Positions 30,214-57,779 of a stretch of DNA of 64,000 nucleotides are shown here, piece by piece (within the stretch, counting starts at the first letter, position 1; every line of letters starts with the position of its first letter). Under the pieces are notes generated by a model, which had not been told where the DNA came from, searched no databases, and was given only the letters and a program-made list of their open reading frames with translations. The translations under genes were made by a program, and so were the position numbers. Source of the DNA: an uncultured Prevotella sp. (GTDB taxonomy: Bacteria > Bacteroidota > Bacteroidia > Bacteroidales > Bacteroidaceae). Where the stretch lies: contig CAKQMS010000002.1 of NCBI GenBank assembly GCA_934254985.1, positions 62,001-126,000 on the forward strand, written 5' to 3'.

Positions 30214-30261
30214 TAAGTAAGGTTAGAAAGCATACAACAATCACACAACATAACAAGCAAT

Positions 30262-31263: not shown

Positions 31264-31342
31264 TAATATGGACTTTACAATAATGGACATACTTCTTGCC
31301 TACAAACAATACTGATAATAATCTGATAATACTCTGAAACTT

Positions 31343-32983: not shown

Positions 32984-33021
32984 GAATAAACAGAACGTAT
33001 CATAAAAGTAACTATCGTCTT

Positions 33022-34011: not shown

Positions 34012-34045
34012 ACAATAATAATAACAATAATAATATATTACCCTT

Positions 34046-35584: not shown

Positions 35585-35643
35585 AAAAGTAAAAAAGTAA
35601 AAAAATAAAAAATAACATAATGATAATCAAAACACATAAAACT

Positions 35644-37143: not shown

Positions 37144-37165
37144 ATCTCTTAAAACGACAACAATT

Positions 37166-37978: not shown

Positions 37979-38023
37979 TATTCGGGACACTCCCAATATA
38001 CTATAATAGTATAAATCACACAT

Positions 38024-38068
38024 GCCGATAGCACTCACCAACAAATAGTGCTATCGGCTTTCTTTTTT
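38024..38068 (+). terminator. Terminator of the susC operon
   Basis: A perfect 12 bp stem pairs GCCGATAGCACT (38024-38035) with AGTGCTATCGGC (38047-38058), followed by TTTCTTTTTT. Confidence 0.9.
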
Positions 38069-38102
38069 ACTCTAAAAAGGTGGAAATATCACATATTTTA
38101 GC

Positions 38103-38111
38103 TATATTTGC
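38103..38111 (+). promoter_or_regulatory. -7 box for the PL8 lyase gene
   Basis: TATATTTGC is a full match to TAnnTTTGC, 27 bp before the ATG. With the terminator just upstream it makes the lyase gene a separate transcription unit. Confidence 0.65.
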
Positions 38112-38138
38112 AGTATATAAATCTCAATAACAGAATCT

Positions 38139-41276: not shown

Positions 41277-41450
41277 TTATTCCTCCCAAAGATTACCACT
41301 TTTAGCACCCTCACCTCCAAATGGATCAGTTTCTTCTTTGAGATCAGAGAGATTACCACCTGGTGTAGCAGAACCTGTTGAACCTGCCATTATTGTATTG
41401 TTCTCCATCTTCAATTCTGTTATAGCTGGAGCGATATATGTCTTTTTCAT
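41277..41450 (-). CDS. Small YIxPxI / Trp-acidic-tail protein 1
   Basis: A 57-residue protein that starts MKKTYIAPAITELKMENNTI, continues MAGSTG and ends SGNLWEE. The middle is Gly/Thr/Glu-rich. No signal peptide or transmembrane segment is visible. It shares the N-terminal K-x-YIxPxI motif, the central MA-x-S-x-G motif and the Trp-acidic C-terminus with the small proteins at 44300-44482 and 54742-54915. It begins 22 bp after the stop of the GLUG/fimbrillin-type lipoprotein gene and a terminator follows, so it is cotranscribed with it. The function is unknown. Confidence 0.78.
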   Translation of the reverse strand: MKKTYIAPAITELKMENNTIMAGSTGSATPGGNLSDLKEETDPFGGEGAKSGNLWEE

Positions 41451-41472
41451 TTCTACTGTTTTATTTATTTTG

Positions 41473-43332
41473 TTATTTCTTTACGATTGCACCTTCTGCA
41501 TTAAACTCATATTCTGTAGAGCCCCAAGCGGTGTTAGCATCTGTTACCCACTCGCTAAATGGCTTTTTGTCATCTTTCTTATAGCATTTATTTGGTGTAA
41601 CAGCAGTACTTGAAATCAAATTATCAGCATTTGTCCAACAATTATTCAATGTAAACTCAATTGTACTTGGTGAAGCAACTATACCTCTATTAGTTCCAAC
41701 ATTAGGGAACAACAAGTTCTCAGTCCAACATGCTGTAATTGTAATTTGGTCAGCATCTTTAGAACTTGAAATATAGCCTAAAATACCTCCAGTATAAGTT
41801 GTTGTTGCAGTTGTTATAAATGAAACATCTTTTGTTGAACAGCCCTTTATAATAATTTTCTGATCAGCAGTATTTCCATTTATAGAACCAACAATACCAC
41901 CAAATCTTGGAGACGCATTTGTGCAGTTAATATATCCCTCGTTTCTACAAGCTTCAATTACCGCATCAGTTTTACCATTTTGAGCATATATATCACCAAG
42001 AATTCCACCAATATACTGTGTTTTAGAATTAATAATACCTTTATTTACACAATTCTTTATAGCGTTACCTGTATGGTTAATTCTACCAACTATTCCACCT
42101 ACGGCTTTAGTAGTTACTGATTCATCTGTTGTAATATTTGCTTTATTAGTAAGGTTTTTCACAACTCCATTATAGCCCAAAACTCCAAAGAGACCTAATT
42201 CAGTTGGGGTACCTCCAAGTTTTATATTTCCTAAAATCGCATGACCATCACCATCAAAAGTGCCATGGAAGTTGTCAATTGGAGTCCAAGAGCCATTGAT
42301 AACGATATCATTGGTCAACACAAAATACTTTCCTGAAGTATTTGCATTAGTTTTCGCCTGCTCTCTCAAAAAATTAAATTGTGCCAAGTTGCTAATCTGA
42401 TATGGATTATTTTGGACTCCTGTTCCACCAGCAAAGCTTGTGGCTACACCATTATCAACAACTGCACCTTTCTTTTCAATCTTATAAACCTTACCAGCTA
42501 CGAGGTTAGCATTACCAAGAGTGAATTCATAGGTTTTGCCATCAGCCATTACAGCCTGGAGCTTAACGTTCTGAACTGCACCTGGGTACATTGCGATATA
42601 GATATCCTTTGCCTGACCTGCTTTTACTTCTACAGAAGGAACGGTGATAGTAAAGCCATTCTGGTTGCCGAGCTGACCAGCGTTAGCACCTGTGGTATTC
42701 ATGCGTGAGATAGAATACACGTTGTCGCCGGTAAGATACAAAGCGGCTGTACCTGCAACAGTTGTCCCAGGGAAGTCCAAAGAAAGCTTAAGGAATGTTG
42801 TCTGATACTCGAAATTCATTGAGAGTTCTGTACCCTTGGCAGGATCGTAAGTTGTCTTACCAAACAATACGCAACGGCTTGTTGCATCTGCATAAGTACC
42901 ATCTTGTTTAGAATAGTCTACCTCTATCTGATCACCAAGACCTTCTGTTTTAGCATTTACAGCAGAGATACCATCGTTAGCAACATAAGCGGTAATCTTA
43001 TCTCCATTCTTAGGTGTGGTAGGCAATTTTACTGTAAGTTTTGCATTGTGCTTATCTGCTGTAGTAGTAATTCCACACTTACCAGCATTAGCTGTAGAAC
43101 CAGCAAAAGCATAAACCTTATCGGTAGAGGTCCATTCTACTGTATAATCGTTGTTATACTGAACTCGCGACATAGCGGCATCAGCGCCAGCAGTAGCATT
43201 AATAGTCAAGGTAACGCCCTTGTCTTCTGTTGAGTTTTTGTCACCTACGATATCATTGTCTGAGCTACAAGCTGCAAAGAATGACAATGCTGCAGGAACA
43301 AAAAGCATTTTCATAAGTCTTGTTTGTTTCAT
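41473..43332 (-). CDS. Fimbrillin-like lipoprotein with GLUG repeats
   Basis: A 619-residue lipoprotein (Cys22 in FFAACSSDN). The first about 280 residues have fimbrillin-like strands (YTVEWTSTDKVYAFAGSTAN, YQTTFLKLSLDF). Residues about 300-560 carry a GLUG-type repeat region: FHGTFDGDGHAILGNIKLGG, LGLFGVLGYNGVVKNLTNKA, VGGIVGRINHTGNAIKNCVN, IGGILGDI and FGGIVGSING. These repeats form a beta-solenoid typical of surface adhesins. Unlike the two other modules it has no poly(G) tract and its frame is intact. The small-protein gene follows 22 bp downstream. Confidence 0.82.
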   Translation of the reverse strand: MKQTRLMKMLFVPAALSFFAACSSDNDIVGDKNSTEDKGVTLTINATAGADAAMSRVQYNNDYTVEWTSTDKVYAFAGSTANAGKCGITTTADKHNAKLTVKLPTTPKNGDKITAYVANDGISAVNAKTEGLGDQIEVDYSKQDGTYADATSRCVLFGKTTYDPAKGTELSMNFEYQTTFLKLSLDFPGTTVAGTAALYLTGDNVYSISRMNTTGANAGQLGNQNGFTITVPSVEVKAGQAKDIYIAMYPGAVQNVKLQAVMADGKTYEFTLGNANLVAGKVYKIEKKGAVVDNGVATSFAGGTGVQNNPYQISNLAQFNFLREQAKTNANTSGKYFVLTNDIVINGSWTPIDNFHGTFDGDGHAILGNIKLGGTPTELGLFGVLGYNGVVKNLTNKANITTDESVTTKAVGGIVGRINHTGNAIKNCVNKGIINSKTQYIGGILGDIYAQNGKTDAVIEACRNEGYINCTNASPRFGGIVGSINGNTADQKIIIKGCSTKDVSFITTATTTYTGGILGYISSSKDADQITITACWTENLLFPNVGTNRGIVASPSTIEFTLNNCWTNADNLISSTAVTPNKCYKKDDKKPFSEWVTDANTAWGSTEYEFNAEGAIVKK

Positions 43333-43641
43333 CTTTTTATTAAGTTATTAGATATTTATTAAATTATTTATTAAATACAGTTTGAATTATTAGATATTTG
43401 CATTAGGTTTGCATAACCGGGTGCAAAATTATATAATATTCTTCGACTATATAAAGCATTTACATAGTTTAACTACTTAATAAAATATTTTATTATCATT
43501 CTAACTATCAACAAAAATCTACCAGACTTACATATACACCTTATTATAATATATTATTATGTCGTAATTATTAAGCATTTTGCTTTAATTTGAATGCTTC
43601 AAACTTACAGATTATCTTTGATTTTCATCAATATTCACTCC
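43333..43641. other. AT-rich intergenic region
   Basis: About 309 bp, strongly AT-rich. It holds the -7 box TAATTTTGC on the minus strand (43423-43431), about 90 bp upstream of the GLUG lipoprotein start. I see no gene. Confidence 0.6.
43423..43431 (-). promoter_or_regulatory. -7 box for the GLUG lipoprotein / small protein 1 operon
   Basis: The minus strand reads TAATTTTGC, a full match to TAnnTTTGC. It implies a 5' leader of about 85 bases. Confidence 0.6.
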
Positions 43642-44142
43642 TTACTTTTTATCCCATTCTTTTAGCACTTCCTTAGCTTTTTCCAAATGTCGCTTGTCGC
43701 GTGCACCACGACGGTCGAAGAGAGCGGCAGCATCAAAGGATGCACCTGTTTTAGAGCGTGGAATAGCAGAGATAGCCTGTTGCATGCCCTTGAGCATACA
43801 CGATAGTCCCTCCACACGAAGATCCTTTCCCCAAACTTGAACTTCGCGTAGAGTATTCATCGATGGCAACAACATAATGGTATCAGTAAGATTCTCTTGT
43901 TTCACGGTATATGCCAAATAGCCATACCGCATAAAAGTAGCCTCTTCGAAGGCTACGGGCAGATGTAGAGTGCCTGTATAGTCGGTAGTGTCGCGATAGT
44001 TGGTTTTGGTAACTACATGCACATCTCGCAATGGCGTATGCGTTTCCAAGTCGCATACCACTATCACTCTTTGGGCTTTCACCTCACTACACCATATTAT
44101 AATAAAGAGGGGCAACAGAAAGCCCAAAATATTACTACTCAT
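43642..44142 (-). CDS. Exported carboxypeptidase-regulatory-like domain protein
   Basis: 166 residues. The signal peptide (LGFLLPLFIIIWCSEVKAQ) is followed by one CarboxypepD-reg-like beta-sandwich (QRVIVVCDLETHTPLRDVHV, DTTDYTGTLHLP, GYLAYTV). A short helical tail (AIPRSKTGASFDAAALFDRR) has no recognised domain. No TonB plug or barrel follows, unlike SusC. Its -7 box and start codon lie inside a 16 bp inverted repeat pair. The function is unknown. Confidence 0.78.
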   Translation of the reverse strand: MSSNILGFLLPLFIIIWCSEVKAQRVIVVCDLETHTPLRDVHVVTKTNYRDTTDYTGTLHLPVAFEEATFMRYGYLAYTVKQENLTDTIMLLPSMNTLREVQVWGKDLRVEGLSCMLKGMQQAISAIPRSKTGASFDAAALFDRRGARDKRHLEKAKEVLKEWDKK

Positions 44143-44226
44143 TTGTCAAGTCATTAATACGTGGTGCTCGTATATCGCACCTTAAACTTCGACAAAGTTA
44201 ATATTTTTGCTCTGTTGCCCCTCTTT
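44104..44226. repeat. 16-bp inverted repeat pair enclosing a promoter and start codon
   Basis: AAAGAGGGGCAACAGA at 44104-44119 and its exact reverse complement at 44211-44226 bound a 91 bp segment. The segment contains the start codon of the 43642-44142 gene, its -7 box and a small hairpin (GGTGC...GCACC). Confidence 0.7.
44193..44200 (-). promoter_or_regulatory. -7 box for the 43642-44142 gene
   Basis: The minus strand reads TAACTTTG (then TC), matching TAnnTTTG, 51 bp upstream of the start codon. Confidence 0.55.
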
Positions 44227-44299
44227 GGGTTAAAATACTTTTTGTATATTAAACTTTCATTTTGCTAAAATACAGCGTAATTAGTTAACAATCGTAAAA

Positions 44300-44482
44300 C
44301 TATTCGTCACCCCAAGCATCATAACGCTTAGAAAGGATAGCATCAGGAGTTGAAACTTCACTACTTTCTGAATCAAAAGTTGGAGTATATCCTACAGGAT
44401 TGTTGCCACTAGATGCAGCCATTAGAGTCTGCTCTTCTATGATTGTGATATTGATTTCAGGTTTGATATATTTTGTTTTCAT
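44300..44482 (-). CDS. Small YIxPxI / Trp-acidic-tail protein 2
   Basis: A 60-residue protein that starts MKTKYIKPEINITIIEEQTL, continues MAASSG and ends RYDAWGDE. The YIxPxI motif is at residues 5-10 and MAASSG is at 21-26, the same positions as in small protein 1. No signal peptide is visible. The gene starts 24 bp after the stop of the large exported-protein gene (module 2), so it would be cotranscribed with it whether or not that gene is in frame. Confidence 0.82.
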   Translation of the reverse strand: MKTKYIKPEINITIIEEQTLMAASSGNNPVGYTPTFDSESSEVSTPDAILSKRYDAWGDE

Positions 44483-44506
44483 TGTTTCTTAGTTTTTATG
44501 TTGTTA

Positions 44507-46322
44507 TTACTTAATTACCACTTTCTTTCCATTATGGATATAGATACCCTTGTTAGGCTTCATTGTCTTCACACCCTGAAGTGAGAAGTATTCGTTAGCA
44601 TTAGCCTTAGCAGCATTTACGTTGCTGATGCCTGTTGTTTCGCCACCGAATGAAAGGAATGTAGCCTTAGATGCAGTTTCTGAGAGGTCGATATAGCACT
44701 TGCCTGCAGGGATATTTACACCATCAGCAACCTTACCGAAGCCAACCCCCTCTGCACGCTTTGTTAATACATAGTATTTTGTATCAGCAGTAGCTGTCAA
44801 TCCCTCGCCAGTAGCAACCTTCAAGTCGTTGCCATCAATAGCCTCAGCAGCCTCTTTGGCCAAAGCAAACTCGTAGCTATTCTCTTCGCCAGCAATAACA
44901 TATCCAGTACCAGCCTTTAGCACCTTGCCTGCCTCTACCTGTGTAAGGTTAATCTGATTGCCTTCAACCTTTGCAGTATAAACCTTAATGCCAGATTCCT
45001 CAGCAGGAACGGTTACATTAGAAGATGGTGAATAGGTAGCGAACTTAGCGGAAGAAATTGGAGCGAGGTCAGAAATTCTACGAATATAGATATAATCAAG
45101 ACCATTTTTAGCATCACCAGACTTCTTCCATACAAAAGGACAAGCCTTATTAACAACAATTATTTGTGATTTAGTATCTCCATTTGACATATCTGTAACA
45201 ACATGATCATAAGCTTCATCACCATAAGCGAAAGATAAAGTACAACCGACTTTATTATTTGCATACGTAAATGATGTCACTTCATATTTACCCGGAGTAA
45301 GATTTACCAATTCTATATCATTAGGAGCATAACCACAAGCAGCATTTGAAGAACGAACTACCATATTATTACCAGCAGAAGTTACTACAGCCCCTTCGAT
45401 ATTCTCACCTTCTGAATAATAAACGACATTATCAATCTTTGCATCCGAATAATCTAATGTTTTATTAAAACCATCAACATTAGGAGTTATTGTCAAACGA
45501 TATTCTTTATCAGTAACTCCATAAGAATATAGTTTACCATCAACATTTATAAAATGAGAGTAAGGTACTGTCACATCATCACCTTCAATACAAATTCCTT
45601 CAGAAATAGTTGTTCCAAGATTGGTTGTAACCGAATAATTATAATTATTTGCCTTACGCAAAGCAACATTTAGAACATTTTCAGAAGAGCCTAATTCCAT
45701 AGATGTAGTAGCTCCATCTGCAAAATAATACTTCTGCCCATCTATAGTTATAGGAGATTCGGCATATATAGTTGCGCTCAATTGGTCTTTTGCTATAACA
45801 CTTTTAATAGTTTGATTCTCATATTGATAATTTATTGTATAATCAACAAGATTAATACTATTATCTTTATCCATTACTAGGATAGCTACAACGCACCCAC
45901 TTCTACCTAGAGTAATATTTAGTGTTGGACTATCATTATCAACTTTTAAAAAAGTCAAATTATTTCCTGTATAATCAGTTGTAACAGTACAATTAGCTAT
46001 AGAACAAACATTCCCTGCCTTATTTTGAGTATCAAACCAATTGACAATAACCAATTGGTCTTTCTTAAGAGATATAGAAATCGTAGCACTTCTATTTCCA
46101 GAACCGAAGTTGTATAAACCAAAATTTGAATCTCTATACCTCAAATCTCCTGAAGTAGGTAACGTACTAGAATCTTTTAGGAAATTATACAATACAGGAT
46201 TCTTGTATCCTTTTACTGTATAAGAATCAGATAAAGAAGTTGAATAACCCCATACTTTTACCCCCCCCTAACATGCAAAACAGCACAGCGAGAAGCATAG
46301 TTTTTAATAAATTTTGTTTCAT
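44507..46322 (-). CDS. Large exported T9SS-type protein, frameshifted at a poly(G) tract
   Basis: The gene starts at the ATG at 46322 (MKQNLLKTMLLAVLFCMLGG). A run of eight G on the coding strand (46261-46268) follows codon 18, and the frame then stops after 31 codons. With seven or ten G the frame continues VKVWGYSTSLSDSY into the 561-residue open frame. The mature protein has a beta-rich N-terminal part and a domain at about 390-530 shared with the 54956-56144 protein (IKVYTAKVEGNQINLTQV...AGTGYVIAG). The C-terminus, YFSLQGVKTMKPNKGIYIHN then GKKVVIK, resembles a T9SS sorting domain. It is either phase-variable and OFF here, or affected by an indel or read error. Confidence 0.8.
46261..46268 (-). 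repeat. Poly(G) tract (G8 on coding strand) in the module 2 large gene
   Basis: Eight consecutive C on the plus strand. It lies just after the hydrophobic part of the signal peptide and is the position where the reading frame breaks by one base. Confidence 0.85.
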
Positions 46323-46642
46323 TTTTTTATGTTTTAGTTATTAATTTAGGTATCGATTGTAAAATTCAACTGTTTGAATTGCCATTCATTAAGTAGTCGT
46401 AGCACAGAAGAGTAAGCATTTCAACTGCGTGTATGCAAAGATATAACGAATTAATTACAACGACAATAGGTATATTGTATAAATGCCAATTATTGCCAAA
46501 ATATGTAGTAGATTACCAAAAATCATAGTTGCAAGAAAACAATTATGCCTCAAACTACAGAGTACAAGTAGGTATCTGCAGTTTGAGGCATAAGATTAAT
46601 ACTTCCGTGATAATAAAGAATGTGTGGAAGACTATATAGCTC
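46323..46642. other. Intergenic region upstream of module 2
   Basis: About 320 bp. It contains the -7 box TATCTTTGC on the minus strand (46435-46443). A possible terminator hairpin of the GYF-protein gene is formed by TATGCCTCAAACTACAG and CTGCAGTTTGAGGCATA (about 46543-46591). I see no gene. Confidence 0.65.
46435..46443 (-). promoter_or_regulatory. -7 box for module 2
   Basis: The minus strand reads TATCTTTGC, a full match to TAnnTTTGC, about 112 bp upstream of the ATG at 46322. Confidence 0.6.
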
Positions 46643-47530
46643 TTAAATCATATCGATGAGCTTGTCGATAGCATCACCGATGCCTTTATCGCCATCAGGA
46701 TCCATCTTCTTCTTGACATGCTTCTTCACCACATCTTTCACATCGTTGACAATCTCCTCGTCCTCACTATCCACCGACTCAGCATTAGTGTCGTCGGCAT
46801 TGTCGGCATTAGAATCGTCTGAAGGCGATGTGGAGAGCCAATCGTTATTCGACTTAGTCTTCGATGGTTTGCCGAAGCCTTCGCCAATAGACTTGGCAAG
46901 GTCAGCCTCGCCAACGGTAAACACCTTGCCAAGTAAACCTACCGATGCAGTATGCTCCTCGCCACGGAATTCTATTGTGGTGGTAGAGAAGAAGATGTAG
47001 TTATGGTAAACGAGCACACTATTGAGCAGAGGCTCAACGAGGTTGGCTATCATCGAACCACCAAGAGCACCCGTCATCTGTCGTATTTGCTTAGGCAAAG
47101 GTAGTGCGTCGTTGACGGTTTGTGTGAGAGCCGAAGTGATATTCTCTTGTATCACCTCCTGATGTTTATTACGGTCAGGACATGTGGTGCCCATCAATAT
47201 TGCAGCAAAGAGGATTATTGCCAATCCTATCCACAGCATAGTTGTTCCACAACCTTTTCCCTTCTTCTTTGGTTTCTCAGGTGTTGGTTCTGGTGCAGGC
47301 TCATATTCTGGCTGCACATATGCAGGTTGTGGAGTAGGATTTGTAGGAGGTGGAGGTGGCGTCTGCTGTCCATAGAGATAGTTTTTGAGTTCTTCCACCT
47401 GCCATGCAGGAGTCCAGTCTGTCATTCCCTCAGCCCATACCAGGGTATCAGAGTTAAGACCTCTTTTCACAAGCTCGTCGATGGTGTATGGTCCAGCTTG
47501 CTGTCCGTTGTCTACGATAAAATAGTTCAT
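46643..47530 (-). CDS. GYF_2-domain membrane protein
   Basis: 295 residues. Residues 1-55 are a GYF_2 domain (YFIVDNGQQAGPYTIDELVK, TLVWAEGMTDWTPA), which binds proline-rich peptides. A Pro-rich linker (57-90) and a transmembrane helix (TMLWIGLAIILFAAILMG) follow. Then comes a DUF4359-like soluble part (NYIFFSTTTIEFRGEEHTAS, then VGLLGKVF) and an acidic, then lysine-rich tail. Related proteins in Bacteroidota are uncharacterised. A -7 box lies 29 bp upstream. Confidence 0.82.
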   Translation of the reverse strand: MNYFIVDNGQQAGPYTIDELVKRGLNSDTLVWAEGMTDWTPAWQVEELKNYLYGQQTPPPPPTNPTPQPAYVQPEYEPAPEPTPEKPKKKGKGCGTTMLWIGLAIILFAAILMGTTCPDRNKHQEVIQENITSALTQTVNDALPLPKQIRQMTGALGGSMIANLVEPLLNSVLVYHNYIFFSTTTIEFRGEEHTASVGLLGKVFTVGEADLAKSIGEGFGKPSKTKSNNDWLSTSPSDDSNADNADDTNAESVDSEDEEIVNDVKDVVKKHVKKKMDPDGDKGIGDAIDKLIDMI

Positions 47531-47559
47531 CTTTCTATATATATAATAATGTATGGGCG

Positions 47560-47568
47560 CAAAAGTAC
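47560..47568 (-). promoter_or_regulatory. -7 box for the GYF-domain gene
   Basis: The minus strand reads TACTTTTGC, a full match to TAnnTTTGC, 29 bp upstream of the start codon. Confidence 0.6.
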
Positions 47569-47699
47569 AAAAAATATATCTATTTGCCTATATCTGCTTA
47601 AAAAAAATTCATCGTAACATTATCGAAACATTAGTGCAATGCTGCAGCAACATCTTTTATAGACCTTTGCATCGTGAAAAGTACAACAACAATAAAACG

Positions 47700-48719
47700 A
47701 TGAAAAAGAATTTGATTGTTGCAGCCGTTATGGCTTGCACCGCCATGAGCGCCATGGCACAAGATGTAGACTTGACTCCAAAGATAGGAGGAACCATTCG
47801 AAGCAAATACGAATACCAGACCGAAGAGGGCGAAGGTCGCTTCGAGGTTAGAAATGCGAGAATTAATATCACAGGCAAGGTTACCCCTATAGTATCATAC
47901 AAGGCAGAGATAGACCTCTGCGACGAGGGTGCAATAAAGATGCTCGACGCATATACAAGATTGAAGCCTTCTAAGGATTGGCAGTTTACAATTGGTCAGA
48001 TGCGTGTGCCTTTCACCATCGATGCCCACCGCTCTCCACATCAGCAGTATTTCGCCAACCGTTCGTTCATTGCCAAGCAAGTGGGCAATGTGAGAGACGT
48101 TGGTGCTGCCGTAGGATATAATGTTAATGTTGGTTTCCCTATCATCCTCGAAGCAGGACTCTTCAATGGCTCAGGACTAACAAACCAGAAGGACTATTGG
48201 ACCAAGGGAACAAACTATTCTGCTAAGGCACAGTTCCTGTTGCCATGCGGACTCAACGTAGTGGGTAGCATACAGAAAGTGAAACCATCGGATGTCACCG
48301 TTACTATGTACGACGGTGGACTCACCTTCCACCACAAGCAACTCTTGATAGAGGCAGAATATCTATATAAGCACTATTCTAAGGATGCCTTTGAGGGAGT
48401 GCATGCCTTTGACGGTTTCATCAACTACGACTTCTTGATGAAGAAAGGTCCGCTGCAGAAAATCTCAGCCCTTGCCCGCTACGACTTCATGAGCAACCAT
48501 AGCGATGGTAAGCGTTATGAGAATAGCAATGGCGAGAGCGTACTCAAGGTCAACGACTACAAGCGCAGTCGTATCACCAGCGGTATCACGCTAAGCTTCG
48601 CCAAGCCTTTCATCAGCGACGTTAGAATAAACTTCGAAAAATACTTCTATGCCAAGAATAGCATAGCCAAACCATCCGAGAAAGATAAAATCGTCATTGA
48701 GTTTATGACGAAATTCTAA
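47700..48719 (+). CDS. Porin, phosphate-selective porin O/P-like
   Basis: About 339 residues from the ATG of MKKNLIVAAVMACTAMSAMA. The open frame extends upstream, but only this start gives a signal peptide (cleavage after AMAQ). The mature part is a beta-barrel: GGTIRSKYEYQTEEGEGRFE, YKAEIDLCDEGAIKMLDAYT, and the motif WQFTIGQMRVPFTIDAHRSP typical of OprO/P-like porins. It ends in a barrel strand with Phe (IEFMTKF). It allows passive diffusion of small anions or solutes; specificity is not known. It is convergent with rsgA. Confidence 0.85.
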   Translation: MKKNLIVAAVMACTAMSAMAQDVDLTPKIGGTIRSKYEYQTEEGEGRFEVRNARINITGKVTPIVSYKAEIDLCDEGAIKMLDAYTRLKPSKDWQFTIGQMRVPFTIDAHRSPHQQYFANRSFIAKQVGNVRDVGAAVGYNVNVGFPIILEAGLFNGSGLTNQKDYWTKGTNYSAKAQFLLPCGLNVVGSIQKVKPSDVTVTMYDGGLTFHHKQLLIEAEYLYKHYSKDAFEGVHAFDGFINYDFLMKKGPLQKISALARYDFMSNHSDGKRYENSNGESVLKVNDYKRSRITSGITLSFAKPFISDVRINFEKYFYAKNSIAKPSEKDKIVIEFMTKF

Positions 48720-48730
48720 GGAGAGAGAAG

Positions 48731-48815
48731 AGTGAAGAGTGAAGAACGAAGAGTGAAGAATCAAAATGCTATAAAAGCTAATGGATTCTTCACTCTTCGT
48801 TCTTCACTCTTCACT
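48731..48815. repeat. 32-bp perfect inverted repeat made of GAAGAGTGAA words
   Basis: The arms 48731-48762 and 48784-48815 are exact reverse complements with a 21-base loop. Each arm consists of GAAGAGTGAAGAACGAAGAG-type microsatellite. A further CTTCACTCTTCACTTAAATT copy follows. It lies between the convergent porin and rsgA genes and could act as a bidirectional terminator despite lacking a T-tract. Confidence 0.8.
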
Positions 48816-48845
48816 TAAATTCTTCACTCTTCACTTAAATTCTTC

Positions 48846-49778
48846 CTACTGGCTCTCTCTATACTTTCCTTCTTCTTTATCTTCGAGCATAGAGAGGTAG
48901 CTTTGGTAGCGGCTGGCAGAGATATAGTGGTCTTCCACAGCCTTGAGCACAGCACAACCAGGCTCGTGAGTGTGAGTACAGTTATTGAAGCGGCAATGCT
49001 GCGAGAAATGGAATATCTCTTTGAAATAGCTCGTTATCTCTTCTGGTTCCATATCGAAAGTGCCGAAACCTTTTATGCCTGGAGTATCTATGACATAGCC
49101 ACCACATGGCAACAGAAGCATTTCGCTGAATGTTGTGGTGTGCATACCCGTATCGTGAGCATAGCTAATCTCGGCAGTACGCTGCTGAGCGCCAGGCACA
49201 ATGCGGTTGATAAGGGTAGACTTTCCCACTCCACTATTTCCGCTTAGCAAAGTCACTTTGCCCTGCAAGTGCGGCATTATCGCCTCTACACCCTCGCCAG
49301 TCTCTGCCGATACCTCCAAGCATTCGTAGCCGATGGTGGTATAGAGGGTCACCATCATCTTCTGATATCGAGCCTCATCTTCTGTTAGGATATCCGTTTT
49401 GTTGAATACCAACACCACAGGCACATTATAAGCCTCAGCCGAAGCCAAGAAGCGGTCGATGAAGGTAGTGGAAGTTTGCGGATGAGCCACAGTAACGATG
49501 AGCATAGCCAAGTCGACATTAGCTGCGAGGATATGACTTTGCTTCGAAAGGTTCTGCGACTTTCTGATAATATAGTTCTTTCTGTCTTCGATAGCCGAGA
49601 TAAAGGCAGTACCCTCTTGGTTAGTAACCAAAGTAACCCTGTCGCCAACGGCCACAGGGTTAGTACTTCGGATACCTTTCAGTCGAAAGTTACCCTTTAT
49701 CTTGCTCTCTATGAGTTGGCCGTCGTCGGTTTTGACGGTATACCAACTACCAGTATTCTTTATTACTAATCCTTTCAT
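48846..49778 (-). CDS. rsgA: Ribosome small subunit-dependent GTPase A
   Basis: A 310-residue circularly permuted GTPase that checks late 30S maturation. An OB domain (about 1-70) is followed by the permuted GTPase motifs: G4 NKTD (126-129), G1 GNSGVGKST (180-188) and G3 DTPGIKGFG. The C-terminal zinc finger has [14 protein letters not shown]. Length is normal. It lies 8 bp downstream of frr, so the two translation-related genes form an operon. Confidence 0.96.
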
Positions 49779-49786
49779 GCGCAGGA

Positions 49787-50347
49787 TTACACAGTCATGA
49801 TTTCCTTCTGCTTCTCTGCCAGCAGGTCGTCAATCTTCTTGATGTACTTATCGTGAAGCTTCTGCAAGTCGTTCTCAGCATCCTTCTCAAGGTCTTCTGA
49901 GAGTCCGTCCTTGATAGCCTTCTTCAGCTTATCCTTGATTTCGCCACGTACGTTGCGCACCTCTACCTTGGTCTTTTCGCCAATCTTGTTGCACTGCTTC
50001 ACCAAGTCGCGACGACGCTCCTCAGTAGGCTGAGGAATAGCAAGGCGGATAACTTCGCCATTGTTCTCAGGTGTGATACCAACATCGCTATCCATGATAC
50101 CCTTTTCGATATCCTTGATAGCCTTACGGTCCCAAGGCTTAATAGCTATGGTACGTGCGTCAGGCACAGATACTGATGCCACCTGATTCAATGGCACCAT
50201 CGATCCGTATGAGCTAACTCTAACTCCGTCAAGGATTGCAACATTTGCACGTCCTGCTCTAATGCGTGCCAACTGCTCTTCCAAGTACATGGCAGCCATA
50301 TCCATACGCTCTTCGGCGTCGGTAAGTGTTTCTTTTACGTCTAACAT
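49787..50347 (-). CDS. frr: Ribosome recycling factor
   Basis: About 186 residues from the ATG of [15 protein letters not shown]; the longer frame adds a non-family N-terminus that reaches the promoter. Core motifs are [39 protein letters not shown] and [20 protein letters not shown]. With EF-G it splits post-termination ribosomes. A -7 box (TATTTTTG on the minus strand, 50381-50388) lies about 34 bp upstream. rsgA follows 8 bp later. Confidence 0.97.
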
Positions 50348-50380
50348 AATAATTAAATTAATGATTTTCGATATTTTGCA

Positions 50381-50388
50381 CAAAAATA
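50381..50388 (-). promoter_or_regulatory. -7 box for frr-rsgA
   Basis: The minus strand reads TATTTTTG then TGC, matching TAnnTTTG. Confidence 0.55.
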
Positions 50389-50565
50389 GGCATTAATTTC
50401 GAAATAGCCAATAGTTTGATTATTTTTTTGTATAAGAAATAGGTGGAAATTGTCCAAACATACCTTGCTATTTGAGTTTTCTACCACTATTTAGCCTGTA
50501 TAGGTTATAATCTGTAATCAAGAATAAGTGTATTTACAACATTATGCAAGAAAAGTGAGAAAATA

Positions 50566-50598
50566 TTTGGTATATTGAAATTAACTTGCTACTTTTGC
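50566..50598 (+). promoter_or_regulatory. Promoter for the 50669 T9SS-cargo operon
   Basis: TTTG at 50566-50569 and TACTTTTGC at 50590-50598 are 20 bp apart, a full Bacteroidota consensus. The start codon follows 70 bp later. Confidence 0.78.
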
Positions 50599-50668
50599 GA
50601 TGTTATTAGAGAAATAGAACAACTGACACCGCTTATTGAACATTTTAAAATTATATTAATAGTTGCGT

Positions 50669-52459
50669 ATGAGACATTTCTACACTACGATGTTGGCAGC
50701 AATGGTTGCTACAACATCATTTGCACAATCAACAGTAAAGACTCAGTCGCTCCTTGAGGCAAATACCGTTGGTACAGTTACCACATGCCCTATCAAGCAG
50801 CAAGCTAAAGTGCTTCCTTTTGGAGCAAAGAAGACTAACTTCCGTCTTCCAAACTTTGCTAAGAAAACAACCTTGTCACCAGCATTGCGTGCAAAGAGAG
50901 CCGCAGCAGAAGACATGCCAATGATCTCAGAACAGCCACAGGGAACACTCTATGCCAATTATTATGGCAACGAGGCAGGCTATGAGATTTTCTGGGGAGG
51001 AGTAGTATCTACAGAAATTGATGGTGCTGCAGAAAACTTCGTTGTTGCCGACAATGGTGATGTGTATCTTAAGGATGCTATGTCGACTTTGCGTCAGGGC
51101 AACTGGATAAAAGGTCATAAGGCTGAAGGCGACACCATAGTTTTCAATTTCCCTCAGAAATACTACCAGCAGGAAGCTGAAGACGAGACTGGCAAGCCTA
51201 CAGGCGGAATGGAATACTGCTATCTATGGCGTACGGTGCTTAGCGATGGTCGCGACACTTTCATTCCAGACCCTACATCACAAACTATTAAATATGTATT
51301 CCGCAACGATTCGTTGATTCGTGTTGACGACTTCAAGGACGGAATCTATCTTAGCCTTGCCGATGCCGATGGTGTATGGGTGGGCTATAACGACTTCCGC
51401 AGTACATGGACTAAGTGTAAGGATCAGATTGCTGTGCTTCCTGCAACAGCAAAACCTGAGAAATACCAGCTTGACTATTTCTTTAATGCCAATGGTCAGT
51501 CAGATACTCGTATTATAAATGTTGCTACCGATGGCAACGACATCTATCTCGGCAACCTTTCTGACGGAAATCCTGATGGATGGGTTAAGGGTGAACTCAA
51601 AGATGGTAAAGCTTACTTTAAAGGCATGAACTACCTCGGTGTAGAAGATGGCGTCGACGCAGGTACATCTTATCACACTTATTTCTCACCAGCAGGTTCT
51701 GTTAAACAGTATTTCGAAGATTACAACTTCACTATTGATAGCGTTTATTTCAGAGACGAGATTATCTTCGACTATAACGCAGAGACAAAGAGTTTGAAGT
51801 CTGACAGCCTGTTTATCATCAACGTAGGCAAGAAAGACATCTATGCTCTCACCAAGTTCTACAATAGCAGTATGGCTCCATGGATAGAGAAGCCTGGTAC
51901 ACCAAAGAAGCCTTTCCTCTACGACTTCCTACCTTTCAAGGATGGCGCCGGCAAGGGTGGTATACAATTCGATGTTGAATATACATCTACAGATGGTGTA
52001 TATCTCGACCCTAACAAGATGTACTACAACATCTATTTCGACGACGAAATCCATACATTCTATTCTGACGAATACGTGAGTGGTTTACCAGGAGATGCCG
52101 ATGAGGTTACTGACATTCCATTGAACTATAACAACAATGTCGACATTATGGCTTACAACAACTCACGCATCGTATACTTCTATACCACAGGTTTCGAGAG
52201 CTTTGGTATTCAGCTCCTTTACAAGGATGGCGACAAGGTTTACAAGTCAGATATGGCTAAATTCGTATTCGATGAGGATGGCGAACCTGTAGCAGGTATT
52301 AAGAATGCAACAGCCAACAACTTCGGCTCTGCAGTAAAGAGCGTAAGCTATACCGACCTCAGCGGCCGCACCATCAGCAAGCCTAACAAGGGTATATATA
52401 TGAAGACCGTAAGATTTGCTGACGGCACTCAGAAGACTATTAAATACATTAAGAAATAA
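50669..52459 (+). CDS. Large exported protein with T9SS-like C-terminal domain
   Basis: About 596 residues from the ATG of MRHFYTTMLAAMVATTSFAQ, with a clear SPI signal. The body is Asp/Tyr-rich beta structure (YANYYGNEAGYEIFWGGVVS, DSLIRVDDFKDGIYLSLADA) with no domain I recognise. The last about 35 residues, SVSYTDLSGRTISKPNKGIY, then MKTVRFADGTQKTIKYIKK, match the T9SS type A sorting-domain pattern (strand, xGxxxxxPxKGIYI, basic end). Export through the type IX system to the surface is therefore likely. It is followed 4 bp later by an Omp28-like cargo gene. Confidence 0.8.
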   Translation: MRHFYTTMLAAMVATTSFAQSTVKTQSLLEANTVGTVTTCPIKQQAKVLPFGAKKTNFRLPNFAKKTTLSPALRAKRAAAEDMPMISEQPQGTLYANYYGNEAGYEIFWGGVVSTEIDGAAENFVVADNGDVYLKDAMSTLRQGNWIKGHKAEGDTIVFNFPQKYYQQEAEDETGKPTGGMEYCYLWRTVLSDGRDTFIPDPTSQTIKYVFRNDSLIRVDDFKDGIYLSLADADGVWVGYNDFRSTWTKCKDQIAVLPATAKPEKYQLDYFFNANGQSDTRIINVATDGNDIYLGNLSDGNPDGWVKGELKDGKAYFKGMNYLGVEDGVDAGTSYHTYFSPAGSVKQYFEDYNFTIDSVYFRDEIIFDYNAETKSLKSDSLFIINVGKKDIYALTKFYNSSMAPWIEKPGTPKKPFLYDFLPFKDGAGKGGIQFDVEYTSTDGVYLDPNKMYYNIYFDDEIHTFYSDEYVSGLPGDADEVTDIPLNYNNNVDIMAYNNSRIVYFYTTGFESFGIQLLYKDGDKVYKSDMAKFVFDEDGEPVAGIKNATANNFGSAVKSVSYTDLSGRTISKPNKGIYMKTVRFADGTQKTIKYIKK

Positions 52460-52463
52460 GACC

Positions 52464-54320
52464 ATGATACAGAAAAAGCATTTCCTCGGCGCCTTTATTA
52501 TGGCAGCCGCTTTCGCTGGCTACACCTTTAATGGTTATGCCAACGATGGATTGGTAACATATAGTGCAAATACTGGCACAAAAGAAGTGAAATACTTCGG
52601 AACAGCGAAGAAAGAGTCTTTCGATGTTGCCATGTTGCTTGCCGACAAATATACTAAGGGCAAAAAGATTGAAACCATCAAAGTGCCATTCCCAAAGAAT
52701 GCAGAAATAGGCAATGTCAAGATTTGGCTGACTAAGAAGCTTACTCTTGAGAATAAAAAGAATGTAGCAGACGTGATGACTCTTGATGCCACTATGGACG
52801 ACTCTACAGCTATTGTAAAGTTCGCTACTCCATACACCATTGATAGCGACACGCTATACATTGGCTATTCGTTTGACGTAGTTGAGCTGACAGAAAGAAC
52901 CCAACTTCCTATTTCATTGATTAACGAAAAGGGAGTACAAGGATTGTGGACTCACTCAAGCCGCACATATCGTTCATGGCTTGACAAGTCTACCTACGGT
53001 TGCTCTGCTATGCAGGTTGAACTATCAGGATTTAACGCCAACGATGCCTATTTCGAGGGTTTCAAGGATTATTATAATCAGGTGAACATAGCTACCCCTA
53101 TTAATCTTACCCTCTTGAATCGTGGCTACAATGGCATAAAGTCGATAGACTATAGCTACAGCGTAGGCGATAAGAAAGTTAGCGACCACTTAACTCTCGA
53201 AGCTCCTATCCCTGCATGTCTCAATGCTTCTACCGAGTTTACTGTCACATTGCCTGCAATAGAGGCAAAGGGCAAATATCCTGTTACATTCTCTATCGAC
53301 AAGGTGAACGGAGAGGCTAACAGCGAAGTTGCTACTGCCAACAGCACAATGGCAATATACAACAAGTTGCCTAAGCATCGCCCTGTGATGGAAGAGTTTA
53401 CAGGAACATGGTGTGGTAACTGCTCACGCGGTTGGATTGGTTTGGAAGTAATGACTCGCTTGCATCCTGACTTCATCGCTTTGGCATACCACTCTGGCGA
53501 CGTGATGCAGGTTATTGACCAAAAGCAGTTCTTAGGCTTCGATACAGAGAATCCTGCATATCCTATGGCAAATATCGACCGTGTATACACAGATATAGAC
53601 CCATACTATGGTGCCGACATGACACCTTTCGGTATTGAGGAGATATGGAAAAAGCAAGCTGAGATATTGGCTCCTGCAAGTTTGGAGACAGAGGCTGCAT
53701 TTACTCCTGATGGCAAGGACATCAAGGCTAAGGCTACATTGGAGTTCCCAGAGGCAGCCAATGATGCCGACAAGTATAGCGTAGAGTTTGTACTCGTTAC
53801 TGATGGTCTGCATGGCGAAGGACAGGCATGGGAGCAGAGCAATTATCTTGAGGAAAACGAGAAAGGTGATTACCCATTCCCTGAGGCAGATATTTTCTTT
53901 GCTGGTAGCTCATCAATACCAAACATGCACTACAATGATGTAGTAGTAGCAACAACTCGCTTGCGCAATGGTCTTATCAAGTTGCCAGCAAAGGTTGAAG
54001 CAGAGAAAGCATTCAGCATCGAAGGAACAATCACAGAAGTTGACTCTATCAAGAACATGGCAAACTATCCTGTTATCCAAGATTCAAAGAACTTGCGCAT
54101 CGTGGCTCTGCTCATCAACGAAAAGGGAGAAATCGTGAATGGTGCTCAGGCTAAGGTTACAGGCTATGAGACTACAGGCATCCGCAACATCAACAACAAT
54201 GCAGCAGAAGCTGATGTTCCTGCAATCTACAACCTCCAGGGTCACCGCTTGCAGACCATGCAGAAGGGCTTGAACATCATCCGCACCAAGGATGGCAAGA
54301 CAAAGAAGGTGATGCTATAA
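52464..54320 (+). CDS. Omp28-related exported protein with thioredoxin-like domain and T9SS-like C-terminus
   Basis: About 618 residues from the ATG of MIQKKHFLGAFIMAAAFAGY, which overlaps no signal from the previous gene and gives a good SPI peptide (ending GYAND). The N-terminal beta-sandwich is followed by an Omp28-type thioredoxin-like domain. It starts at about 305 with RPVMEEFTGTWCGNCSRGWI, with the CxxC pair Cys317/Cys320. A later beta domain and a T9SS-like tail (IYNLQGHRLQTMQKGLNIIR, then TKDGKTKKVML) follow. It is cotranscribed with the preceding cargo gene. Its role is unknown; a surface thiol or scaffold function is an inference from the CGNC motif. Confidence 0.85.
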   Translation: MIQKKHFLGAFIMAAAFAGYTFNGYANDGLVTYSANTGTKEVKYFGTAKKESFDVAMLLADKYTKGKKIETIKVPFPKNAEIGNVKIWLTKKLTLENKKNVADVMTLDATMDDSTAIVKFATPYTIDSDTLYIGYSFDVVELTERTQLPISLINEKGVQGLWTHSSRTYRSWLDKSTYGCSAMQVELSGFNANDAYFEGFKDYYNQVNIATPINLTLLNRGYNGIKSIDYSYSVGDKKVSDHLTLEAPIPACLNASTEFTVTLPAIEAKGKYPVTFSIDKVNGEANSEVATANSTMAIYNKLPKHRPVMEEFTGTWCGNCSRGWIGLEVMTRLHPDFIALAYHSGDVMQVIDQKQFLGFDTENPAYPMANIDRVYTDIDPYYGADMTPFGIEEIWKKQAEILAPASLETEAAFTPDGKDIKAKATLEFPEAANDADKYSVEFVLVTDGLHGEGQAWEQSNYLEENEKGDYPFPEADIFFAGSSSIPNMHYNDVVVATTRLRNGLIKLPAKVEAEKAFSIEGTITEVDSIKNMANYPVIQDSKNLRIVALLINEKGEIVNGAQAKVTGYETTGIRNINNNAAEADVPAIYNLQGHRLQTMQKGLNIIRTKDGKTKKVML

Positions 54321-54367
54321 GCATGAATCTCATCTTATAGACTCTTTATAGTTTATACATATCAACG

Positions 54368-54406
54368 ACATAGCTCAGAGTTCGCGCTCTGAGCTATGTT
54401 TTTTTT
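54368..54406 (+). terminator. Terminator after the Omp28-like gene
   Basis: A perfect 13 bp stem pairs ACATAGCTCAGAG (54368-54380) with CTCTGAGCTATGT (54387-54399), followed by TTTTTTT. Confidence 0.92.
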
Positions 54407-54432
54407 AAGATCACCCGACAAACGATGGGGAT

Positions 54433-54551
54433 TAATGTTTAGTGTTTAATGTTTAGTGTTTAGACGGTCTTTTAAACATAAACCTTATAAACCGTTGCTG
54501 GAGAATATCGCACACCCATTAAACATTAAACACTAAACATTAAACACTAAA
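54433..54551. repeat. Inverted pair of TTTAGTG/TTTAATG heptad arrays
   Basis: Four heptads (GTTTAGT, GTTTAAT alternating) at 54433-54463 and their reverse complements at 54518-54551 flank about 54 bp. The left array plus its flank (54436-54489, ending TAAACATAAACCTTATA) recurs as a direct repeat at 56626-56679. Confidence 0.75.
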
Positions 54552-54571
54552 GAGAATTATGTCTCAAAAAC

Positions 54572-54649
54572 GCAGCAGGCTTCGATGGCAAACGAAGCAA
54601 GCTTCATTGGCACTTGAAGCAGGCTTCGTTGGCACATGAAGCCTACTTC
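54572..54649. repeat. 22-bp-period palindrome array, locus C
   Basis: Four 12 bp units lie at exact 22 bp spacing: GCAGCAGGCTTC, GAAGCAAGCTTC, GAAGCAGGCTTC and GAAGCCTACTTC. The 10 bp spacers are GATGGCAAAC, ATTGGCACTT and GTTGGCACAT. The middle two units are perfect palindromes apart from the central two bases. The array is between convergent genes and has no ORF. Confidence 0.8.
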
Positions 54650-54741
54650 ATTTTTTTAGGTGATTTTCTTGGCAAAAAGTGGTGGCACCCTTTCGGATAC
54701 CACCACCTATACTATTATTCTCGTATATATTTAGCCTAAGC

Positions 54742-54915
54742 TTAATCTTCGTCATCCCAAGATGATGACTGGCGGCTGCGAGCAGCGCTTAAGCTGGTTG
54801 CATAATCGTCCTTACTTCCTAAGCTAAATGTAGTTGTTTCGCCACTTGTTGCAGTCATAACAACATTATCAATTATCATAGTCTTTATTTCTGGTGCAAT
54901 ATATGATTTCTTCAT
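54742..54915 (-). CDS. Small YIxPxI / Trp-acidic-tail protein 3
   Basis: A 57-residue protein that starts MKKSYIAPEIKTMIIDNVVM, continues TATSG and ends QSSSWDDED. The YIAPEI motif is at residues 5-10, the MTATSG motif is at 20-25, and a Ser-rich, then Trp-acidic tail follows, as in the two other small proteins of this window. The gene starts 40 bp after the stop of the module 3 large exported-protein gene. No signal peptide is visible. It is too short for most gene-length cut-offs. Confidence 0.78.
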   Translation of the reverse strand: MKKSYIAPEIKTMIIDNVVMTATSGETTTFSLGSKDDYATSLSAARSRQSSSWDDED

Positions 54916-54955
54916 GATTATAATCCTTTTATTGTGTGTTTATTTATTGAATTGA

Positions 54956-56144
54956 TTAGAAACGATATTTCTTTCCGTTAATGATATAGAATCCCTTAGA
55001 AGGAGTCTTTACGCGCATACCCTGCAAGTTGTAGATAGCATTGTCTGCCTTCTTTTCTACAGCTACACCGTTGATAGCTGTAGCCTCGCCAATAAACAAA
55101 GTAGATGGCTTTGCTGAAGATCCATCAGGAATCTCAAGATATGCTTTACCTTTTCGAAGTGTATTATCAGATTTTACAGGATCAATATACTTGAATTCTT
55201 TATCACTTACCAAAATATAAGCAGTTTTACCTTCGAAGTCTTTTGCTTCCATATTCTTGGTAACACCTTTGAGGCAATTATTTGAAAGCGCTTCTGCATC
55301 ATGAACTACAGGAAGTGAAACAGACTGAACATTGTCTACATTCTCAATCAAAAGACCTTCGCCAGCCTTTACCTTACCTGTTACCTGAGTCAATGTAACT
55401 ACATTATTATTAACAGAAGCCTGATAAGCCTTTACAACTGTTACATCTGTAAAGTCTACGTCATGGTCTGGGCTGCAAAATGTAGAATATTTATATTTAT
55501 TGTAACTCTTACTAAGATCTAACTTTACACCTGGATTTTCTTTGATTACCAAAGATTGCAGAATAAGTGTATTTTCATCAGTTTGATCAGTTGCATGATG
55601 ACCAAATTCTACACTACTTAAAGGTGTTGATGTCTCAACAATACCACTTGCTATCTCATCATTTTTATAAGCTAATTTATAATAAGCCTCATCTTCTGCC
55701 TGATTTACAACAATGGTAATTGTATACATTTTACTTTCTGGTTTTCCAACCAATGTAGTTTCTTTACCATCAGCCACGAGTTTGAAATAGCCAGATGTAC
55801 TACCAACTCTATTAAATTTGAATGTTAATCCGCCAAAAGTAAAATAATTATATGAGTCTGCATTATTACAATCAGTTCCAGCCTTGAATTCTGCAACTAA
55901 TGTTACCAAAGGGTCTTCATTTTTAAAAGTAAAGTTGTGTTTAGCAGATATTGTACCTGTACCTGCTAGAACAAGAGCTGTTTTTTCAGTTACAGACAAA
56001 TTAGTCCCCCCCCCAATCTGTAACATCATCAGCTGTCCAATCGTCTTTTCCTGTTTTTGTGTAGACGTCTTCTGCAAACGCATTACCTACTCCAAGCGCA
56101 ATGGCAAGGAGCATCAAAGTAAATTTTACCAAATGCTTTTTCAT
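54956..56144 (-). CDS. Exported T9SS-type protein, frameshifted at a poly(G) tract
   Basis: The gene starts at the ATG at 56144 with a clear signal peptide (MKKHLVKFTLMLLAIALGVG, then NAFAED). After DDWTADDVTDW the coding strand has nine G (56006-56014) and the frame stops at once (GGD then stop). Eight or eleven G would continue GGTNLSVTEKTALV into the rest of the protein. The N-terminal half looks like a concanavalin-like sandwich. A domain shared with the 44507-46322 protein follows (VVKAYQASVNNNVVTLTQVT, AGEGLLIENV). The T9SS-like tail is YNLQGMRVKTPSKGFYIING, then KKYRF. Phase-variable OFF state, pseudogene or base-calling error are the alternatives. Confidence 0.82.
56006..56014 (-). 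repeat. Poly(G) tract (G9 on coding strand) in the module 3 large gene
   Basis: Nine consecutive C on the plus strand, about 44 codons after the start codon. This is the exact point where the frame is lost by one base. Confidence 0.85.
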
Positions 56145-56625: not shown

Positions 56626-56679
56626 TGTTTAGTGTTTAATGTTTAGTGTTTAGACGTTTTTTTAAACATAAACCTTATA
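56626..56679. repeat. Second copy of the 54-bp heptad-containing direct repeat
   Basis: It matches 54436-54489 nearly base for base (TGTTTAGTGTTTAATG..., ending TAAACATAAACCTTATA), with about two differences. It directly follows the locus D palindrome array. Confidence 0.75.
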
Positions 56680-56948: not shown

Positions 56949-57779
56949 ATGGCACAATTCATAAACCCCTTTACCGACATAGGTTTCAAGCGAATCTTCG
57001 GTCAGGAGATATCTAAACCTTTGTTGCTCGACTTCCTCAACAACTTGTTGGCAGGCGAGGAGCATATCGTGAACCTTAGTTTTCTCGACAAAGAGCAGCC
57101 TGCTCTGTATGAAGACGACCGTTCGCTAATCTATGATATTTATTGTGAGACCGATGAGGGCAAGAAGATCATTGTGGAAATGCAGAATAAGTCGCAACCT
57201 TATTTCAAGAACCGCAGTATCTACTATGTTTCTGAAGCTATAGCTCGCCAAGGCGAAAGAGGGTCGGGATGGAACTATAGCATAGATGCTGTGTATCTTG
57301 TTGCTTTCCTCAATTTCTGTCCTATGGACTTTAAGGAGAAGTTCAGAACAGATGTAGTGTTGAAGGATAAGGAAACAAATGATGATTTTTCTGATAAGAT
57401 ACGCATGACATATATGCAGCTACCTTTGTTTAATAAGGAAGCTGATGAGTGTGAGAATGAATTTGAACGTTGGATTTTTGTATTGAAGAATATGGAAACA
57501 TTGACAAGACTACCTTGGGCTGCACAGAATGCAGTATTCAAGAAGTTGGAAGATATAGCCGATGTTGCTGCGCTTTCAAGACAAGAGCGCATGAAATACG
57601 ATGAAGGACTGAGAAAGTATCGCGATACTATCTCTGTGCTTCAGGGTGCTCGCGAAGATGGATTTGCTGAAGGAAGAAAACAAGAGGCTCTTGCTATTGC
57701 TAAGAAATTGAAGGCTATGGGTATGACAGTTGAGGAAATTACTGAAGCAACAGGCTTATTAGAAGAAGATTTAAAGTAA
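56949..57779 (+). CDS. Rpn-family recombination-promoting nuclease / PD-(D/E)XK nuclease family transposase
   Basis: 276 residues. The N-terminal motif MAQFINPFTDIGFKRIFGQE followed by LLLDFLNNLL is diagnostic of the family. The PD-(D/E)XK-type core is visible as RSLIYDIYCETDEGKKIIVE with MQNK (Asp, then E-x-Q/K). The C-terminal part is helical and charged (AREDGFAEGRKQEALAIAKK) and ends in a short helix-turn-helix-like segment (LKAMGMTVEEITEATGL). Family members are mobile-like nucleases that raise recA-independent recombination. It is monocistronic with duplicated promoter units and a good terminator. Confidence 0.92.
   Translation: MAQFINPFTDIGFKRIFGQEISKPLLLDFLNNLLAGEEHIVNLSFLDKEQPALYEDDRSLIYDIYCETDEGKKIIVEMQNKSQPYFKNRSIYYVSEAIARQGERGSGWNYSIDAVYLVAFLNFCPMDFKEKFRTDVVLKDKETNDDFSDKIRMTYMQLPLFNKEADECENEFERWIFVLKNMETLTRLPWAAQNAVFKKLEDIADVAALSRQERMKYDEGLRKYRDTISVLQGAREDGFAEGRKQEALAIAKKLKAMGMTVEEITEATGLLEEDLK

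Follow-up and report, generated by a model that had tools for sequence, protein, structure and literature searches.

Small proteins encoded behind exported-protein genes of Prevotella as probable RiPP-type precursors with a candidate maturation operon acting in trans

What is made from three small open reading frames (ORFs), each lying directly behind the gene of a large exported protein, is the question raised by the stretch of uncultured Prevotella sp. DNA analyzed here (contig CAKQMS010000002.1 of assembly GCA_934254985.1, positions 62,001 to 126,000; all 64,000 nucleotides [nt] are hereafter called the window). The initial annotation had offered a chaperone, an anchor, or a peptide product of the large partner and had noted a resemblance to a leader/core precursor, and this last idea is the one best favored by the evidence. 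We consider it probable, at roughly 0.72, that the small proteins are dispersed precursors of the ribosomally synthesized and posttranslationally modified peptide (RiPP) type, matured in trans by the products of an operon for an HprK-like kinase, an S26-like peptidase, and a PqqD-type RiPP recognition element (RRE). No earlier description of a link between small proteins paired with secreted-protein genes and a RiPP-type maturation operon was found in the open-access papers searched; likewise, searches of the open-access literature on the type IX secretion system (T9SS), Prevotella small proteins, RiPPs and RREs, and fimbrillin (PMC10352776 and PMC13289728 included) turned up no account of the pairing.

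The three small ORFs are all open on the minus strand, as annotated, and begin 22, 24, and 40 nt behind their partners, within the 22 to 40 bp first reported. Small protein 1 (41277..41450, 57 residues) has the leader MKKTYIAPAI... with Y5xxP8, Ser24, a variable acidic middle, and the C terminus NLWEE; small protein 2 (44300..44482, 60 residues) starts with MKTKYIKPEI..., carries Ser24, and ends in SKRYDAWGDE; and small protein 3 (54742..54915, 57 residues) starts with MKKSYIAPEI..., carries Ser24, and ends in RSRQSSSWDDED. Columns M1, K2, Y5, I6, P8, I10, M21, G26, and W55 are identical in all three. That they form one family unrecognized by the curated databases was borne out: Pfam gave zero matches and NCBIfam only a chance-level one for the second protein (E = 0.19), whereas a profile built from the three retrieved 144 homologs at E ≤ 0.01 among 146 candidates from 5.8 billion proteins. 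Among the best 120 of these 144 homologs, there are three subfamilies, one per window ORF, whose ends are constant and whose middle varies in sequence and length even where two proteins are nearly identical. Chance ORFs were rejected because the family exists, its codons vary, and its context is kept, and an upstream regulatory leader was rejected because each small ORF sits downstream of its partner.

The family is widespread among relatives of the source organism. A pattern scan of genome contigs gave 489 matches, of which 3 were confirmed, all in Prevotellaceae, and the three genomes concerned hold 12, 22, and 8 members (E ≤ 1). With a 28-row profile of the family (A4), members were detected at E ≤ 0.01 in 56 of 60 genomes of the Genome Taxonomy Database (GTDB) genus of Xylanibacter brevis and, in an enlarged sample, in 202 of 220, with a maximum of 28 copies each. 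Class-wide, A4 matched only 4 of 295 genomes (E ≤ 1e-3), X. brevis itself among the four; the genus-limited range that this suggested was withdrawn, since a broader profile (A8), run without a distant negative control, matched 157 of 201 genomes of the GTDB family (E ≤ 0.01), and the small proteins thus extend past the genus. Several family-level members (L275, L274, L280, L281, L285, and L287) bear another C-terminal signature, for example, RRG.WG.LW or RGEWGNLW. The sampled genome nearest to the window (G361, 75% identity over rsgA-frr) has 4 precursors and one RRE.

The anatomy of the small protein is described from 128 distinct members, of which three belong to the window and the others to fetched loci (129 rows, from which one 5-residue frame artifact was dropped), all picked by the small-protein profile alone and independently of any partner. 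Tyr and the Pro at Tyr+3 are present in 128 of 128, and Ser stands at Tyr+19 or Tyr+20 in 121, with Thr in a further 5. The four residues before this Ser are mostly two hydrophobic and two small ones (M/L/I, L/I/M, A/C, G/A/T). A Ser-Gly joint had been proposed here, of which the near-invariant Ser24 stands and the Gly does not belong to the conserved joint. A variable acidic stretch then leads to a C-terminal motif of Arg or Lys (111/118) and Trp (108/123, with 9 Phe), followed mostly by Asp or Glu; past Tyr+19, the median length is 34 residues, and with two read-through members excluded, all 126 counted members carry a net negative charge there. Each of the four Pro and six Ser codons occurs, indicating that conservation acts on the protein and not on the DNA. 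A GG-leader/C39 assignment was set aside, because the motif ends in Ser without Gly-Gly; no C39 search was made.

The members share a genomic context. At most 200 nt upstream and on the same strand, 112 of the 128 have a gene ending in a YNLQGQRVxxPxKGLYIVNGKKVxxK-like tail (stricter pass, read by eye; the automatic pass gave 113/128), with a median gap of 22 nt and an overlap of 1 or 4 nt in 6 of the 112. The remaining 16 comprise 10 behind other ends within 200 nt, 2 that are farther away, and 4 without an upstream ORF of 100 residues in reach, two of these near contig edges. The other ends are those of window protein 1, fimbrillin-like proteins (L075, L027), proteins ending in FNVAGQQxK (L088 twice, L129), and uncertain frames (L050, L133, L139); for the L003 member at 8001, a short ORF intervenes and the tail gene lies 433 nt upstream. 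In L025, two family members stand in tandem behind a single tail gene. In 28 loci taken from a family-wide search, 20 members stand behind a tail gene (239 nt away in one case), 1 behind a degenerate tail, and 3 behind other ends, and 4 have no upstream ORF in reach. The pairing exceeds chance, a point that the initial annotation had put up for testing, in the X. brevis genome G003, where 10 of 11 members have a same-strand tail match no more than 450 nt upstream (9 of 11 within 200 nt) against a chance estimate of about 0.6% per gene (71 of 85 tail places used).

So tight an association, with its occasional gene overlaps, would also fit a cytoplasmic adaptor or chaperone that aids secretion or folding of the tail-bearing partner as a T9SS-linked helper. 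We regard this as unlikely, because the converse pairing fails: tail matches number 85 in G003 and 87 in G025, and only about 1 in 8 of those in G003 has a small partner. The translocon protein SprA, found in 57 of the first 60 genomes, does not track the precursors either; four precursor-less genomes retain SprA and have no RRE. Moreover, the middle of the small protein is hypervariable with indels, the AlphaFold prediction for it is poor and shows a single helix (predicted local distance difference test score, 63; predicted template modeling score, 0.18), some members sit behind genes without the tail, and the signal peptides of the partners would leave a cytosolic helper little time.

Turning to maturation of RiPP-type precursors, the initial annotation had objected that no maturation enzyme is adjacent. 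The operon described here is absent from the window; most related genomes, however, carry at another place a candidate operon that could act in trans, which answers the objection. It combines an HprK-like kinase, an S26-like peptidase, and a stand-alone PqqD protein (the RRE), usually once per genome; the RRE is present in 192 of 220 genomes of the X. brevis genus, and 164 of the 201 genomes sampled from the GTDB family have the kinase. In the kinase, the Walker A motif SGTGKST and an NDD motif are invariant, and its model has a PEPCK-type fold; PEPCK tops the Foldseek hits, HPr kinase ranking lower, and another Foldseek listing of 50 rows consists of PEPCK entries. HprK and PEPCK have a common fold. 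The peptidase keeps S40 within GxSMxPF and H78-R79 in 9 of 9 sequences and adjoins HprK in 39 of 39 loci, and RRE sites N35 and D73 are kept. No A4 match was found beside the HprK-S26-RRE operon in these type I loci. An MsbA-like exporter is present in L159, with a similar ORF in L163 and L147, and none was noticed beside type I operons. Among the ORFs of the listed operon loci, whose neighbors were scanned in part, we noticed no nucleotidyltransferase (NTP transferase), macrolactam synthetase, or B2 peptidase.

Similar leaders do occur beside RRE clusters. When A4 was run on 28 loci around RREs, five ORFs scored E ≤ 0.05, each beside an RRE cluster and none elsewhere. Those of L164 (E = 0.005) and L171 (E = 0.011) combine a Cys-rich core with Phe instead of Tyr and adjoin a radical-SAM-type gene; that of L165 (E = 4e-5) adjoins a radical-SAM/PqqD pair; and L177 has two copies (E = 1e-4 and 0.012) adjoining an S26/RRE frame. 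The L164 and L165 maturases match NCBIfam radical-SAM/SPASM RiPP maturase families below cut-off, and that of L171 is known by its CxxxCxxC motif only. Because these matches sit beside RRE clusters, cluster-type RiPPs of the same genomes seem, from sequence, to use a leader of the same layout. The putative clusters L164, L165, and L171 have in common with the dispersed system the leader layout and PqqD, plus HprK in L164 and L171, and differ from it in the radical-SAM/SPASM maturase homolog, the precursor beside the enzymes, and the Cys-rich core (L164, L171).

Precursors and enzymes co-occur across genomes, by Fisher-type p values that ignore the relatedness of the genomes. In the genus (n = 220), 186 genomes have precursors and RRE, 16 precursors only, 6 RRE only, and 12 neither (p = 2e-8). 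HprK, sought in the 34 genomes lacking RRE and/or precursors, was found in 6 of 6 RRE-only genomes and in 3 of 28 without RRE, all three precursor-bearing; RRE and HprK are thereby both absent from 12 of 18 precursor-less genomes versus 13 of 202 precursor-bearing ones (p = 3e-9). At the family level, the corresponding counts are 148 with precursors and kinase, 9 with precursors only, 16 with kinase only, and 28 with neither (p = 2e-15).

Several observations weigh against assigning the small proteins to this operon. A tree of 40 genomes and the window shows 7 changes of RRE and 5 of precursors; joint losses that arose independently number about two, against a mean of 0.1 opposite changes, so that tree-controlled co-occurrence is nonsignificant (sign test, p = 0.5; underpowered). 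Of the 13 precursor-bearing genomes lacking both RRE and HprK, five carry 11 to 17 precursor copies; the 6% rate of such genomes is near single-locus gap rates (SprA, 3/60; rsgA-frr, 29/398), which would allow for, but does not establish, assembly gaps. Enzymes without detected precursors occur in 6 genus and 16 family genomes. Kinase and peptidase score under the curated family cut-offs (S24 and signal peptidase profiles for the peptidase), we noticed no adjacent exporter in most of the 13 listed operon loci, and Asn is missing at the N35 site of 9x90_B, a second lasso RRE with a solved structure. Finally, borderline E values (0.005 to 0.012) apply to three of the five leaders next to RREs, two of these three having Phe for Tyr.

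The nonsignificant tree-controlled test, the 13 genomes without RRE and HprK, and the two leader-like peptides with different, Cys-rich cores beside radical-SAM genes would also fit RiPP-type precursors of which the tail-linked ones are served by another enzyme, such as a radical SAM enzyme or a C39 transporter, the operon co-occurring by shared ancestry. There seems little chance, about one in ten in our judgment, that this is so, as the HprK-S26-RRE operon is the widespread one, its type I loci have no A4-detectable precursor of their own, and published relatives of the operon recognize YxxP.

The closest known counterpart is the linear polyphosphorylated peptides (LPP) (Nat Commun 2026, PMC13381572), described as Bacillota-restricted, with one to three precursors within the cluster plus an NTP transferase, the modified Ser at core residue 3, and Phe and Thr at leader residues –3 and –1. 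Shared with LPP are a YxxP leader, a stand-alone RRE, an HprK-like kinase, a signal-peptidase-I-like leader peptidase, and, in some loci, an MsbA-like exporter; the distance from Tyr to the conserved Ser is 18 in the printed LPP consensus and 19 to 20 in the Prevotella family, and both have a variable region after the leader, although the Prevotella family has a conserved C-terminal end with its R..W-D/E motif (PMC13381572). In contrast to LPP as so described, the Prevotella system is in Bacteroidota and has up to 28 dispersed precursors, usually none of them detected beside the operon and usually adjoining an exported-protein gene, with no NTP transferase noticed. The Prevotella system works like LPP RiPPs in the layout described there, yet we do not file it as LPP, because its precursors lie outside the cluster, an NTP transferase went unnoticed, and the published family is described as Bacillota-restricted.

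Phosphorylated lasso peptides of the paeninodin type also have an HprK-like kinase and a discrete RRE of the PqqD type that recognizes YxxP or WxxP in the leader, and the best NCBIfam matches of the Prevotella RRE are lasso PqqD families, below cut-off; the Prevotella cores differ in being acidic, and the lasso enzymes B2 peptidase and macrolactam synthetase are those unnoticed beside the operons. HPr-rel-A (kinase TIGR04352, PqqD TIGR04353) shares the kinase/PqqD pairing with sub-threshold matches, but the Prevotella scores are far under the curated cut-offs, and to our knowledge, an S26-type peptidase is not defined in that system. Prochlorosins likewise have one enzyme set serving many dispersed precursors in trans; they differ in using an unrelated enzyme, a lanthipeptide synthetase, in conserving only the leader, and in being unlinked to secreted-protein genes.

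In the proposed route, the first 22 to 24 or so residues would be the leader, whose invariant Tyr-x-x-Pro would be bound in the cytoplasm by the stand-alone RRE. The RRE would then hand the precursor to the HprK-like kinase, which, by analogy with LPP, may phosphorylate the near-invariant Ser at Tyr+19/20, and the S26-like Ser/His peptidase would cut the leader off near that Ser, in the M-L-A/C-G/A-S region; if the LPP layout is transferred to the Prevotella leader, the cleavage site would follow either the A/C of M-L-A|G-S or Ser24. The predicted product is an acidic core, with a median of 34 residues from Tyr+20, a variable middle, and the Arg...Trp-Asp/Glu end, which would then be exported. 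One enzyme set, usually in one copy per genome, would serve up to 28 precursors in trans, each usually coencoded with a large exported protein, mostly a KGLYIVNGKK-tailed one.

If this is true, one of the most common gut and rumen genera spends up to dozens of genes per genome on modified peptides. Because precursor and enzymes are encoded apart, such peptides would probably escape mining based on gene clusters. The LPP type, described as Bacillota-restricted, would gain another phylum, and the adjoining exported surface-protein genes would be a first concrete clue to its role. The substrate of the HprK/S26/PqqD operon likewise becomes a testable question.

As for the partners in the window, large exported proteins are encoded upstream of all three small ORFs, as annotated, but partners 2 and 3 are not one open frame in this record. 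Partner 1 (41473..43332, minus strand, 619 residues) has a lipoprotein-like N terminus (CSSDND), and the annotated T9SS-tail or fimbrillin-like character does not hold for it: it lacks the KGLYIVNGKK tail, its sole domain match is a sub-threshold GLUG, and a fimbrillin identity was rejected for want of Pfam support. The body frame of partner 2 (44507..46192, minus strand, listed from a TTG) ends in YFSLQGVKTMKPNKGIYIHNGKKVVIK, and that of partner 3 (54956..56083, minus strand) ends in IYNLQGMRVKTPSKGFYIINGKKYRF. No window partner matched a curated T9SS C-terminal domain in Pfam or NCBIfam (E up to 1), nor did five partners or neighbors from L001 to L003 match a curated T9SS tail in NCBIfam (E up to 10); a bona fide T9SS tail was therefore rejected, and we take the tails to be T9SS-like by resemblance only.

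In both tail-bearing partners, the signal-peptide frame, as read from the sequence, differs from the body frame at a G-run on the minus strand: 8 G at 46261..46268 in partner 2, separating the body from the signal-peptide frame with its ATG at 46322, and 9 G at 56006..56014 in partner 3, where the body meets a 47-residue signal-peptide ORF (56001..56144, minus strand) in a different frame. These are the only two G/C runs of at least 8 in the window, and each falls where the signal peptide of a partner ends; loci L001 to L143 have 7 such runs, 4 of them in a partner signal peptide, in frame in L001, L063, and L088 and out of frame in L123. The runs point either to phase variation of the exported partner by strand slippage or to a sequencing error. 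Tentatively, a genome-wide set of LPP-like precursors might be cotranscribed with exported surface proteins, some of them phase variable, and one core operon would then supply each partner with a phosphorylated acidic peptide of its own, serving it as a matched ligand, adduct, or signal.

Module 3 is bracketed by a 54-nt direct repeat (96%; 54436-54489 and 56626-56679), with a PDDEXK_2 transposase gene beside it (56949-57779), and may be a mobile cassette. Together with the variable middle and constant ends among close homologs, these repeats and the transposase would suit a toxin or an immunity or effector partner of the exported protein, its middle under diversifying selection and no maturation taking place. 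We hold this to be very improbable: it leaves the leader similarity and the RRE co-occurrence unexplained, and Pfam and NCBIfam gave no toxin family match (PADLOC was not searched).

Upstream of module 2 lies a gene with GYF_2 and DUF4359 domains (46643-47530). The window also holds a polysaccharide-utilization-like locus (24018-40514) with GH88, a TonB-receptor/SusD pair, DUF5017, DUF4955, a PL8 lyase, and four fimbrillin-like (Mfa_like_1) genes.

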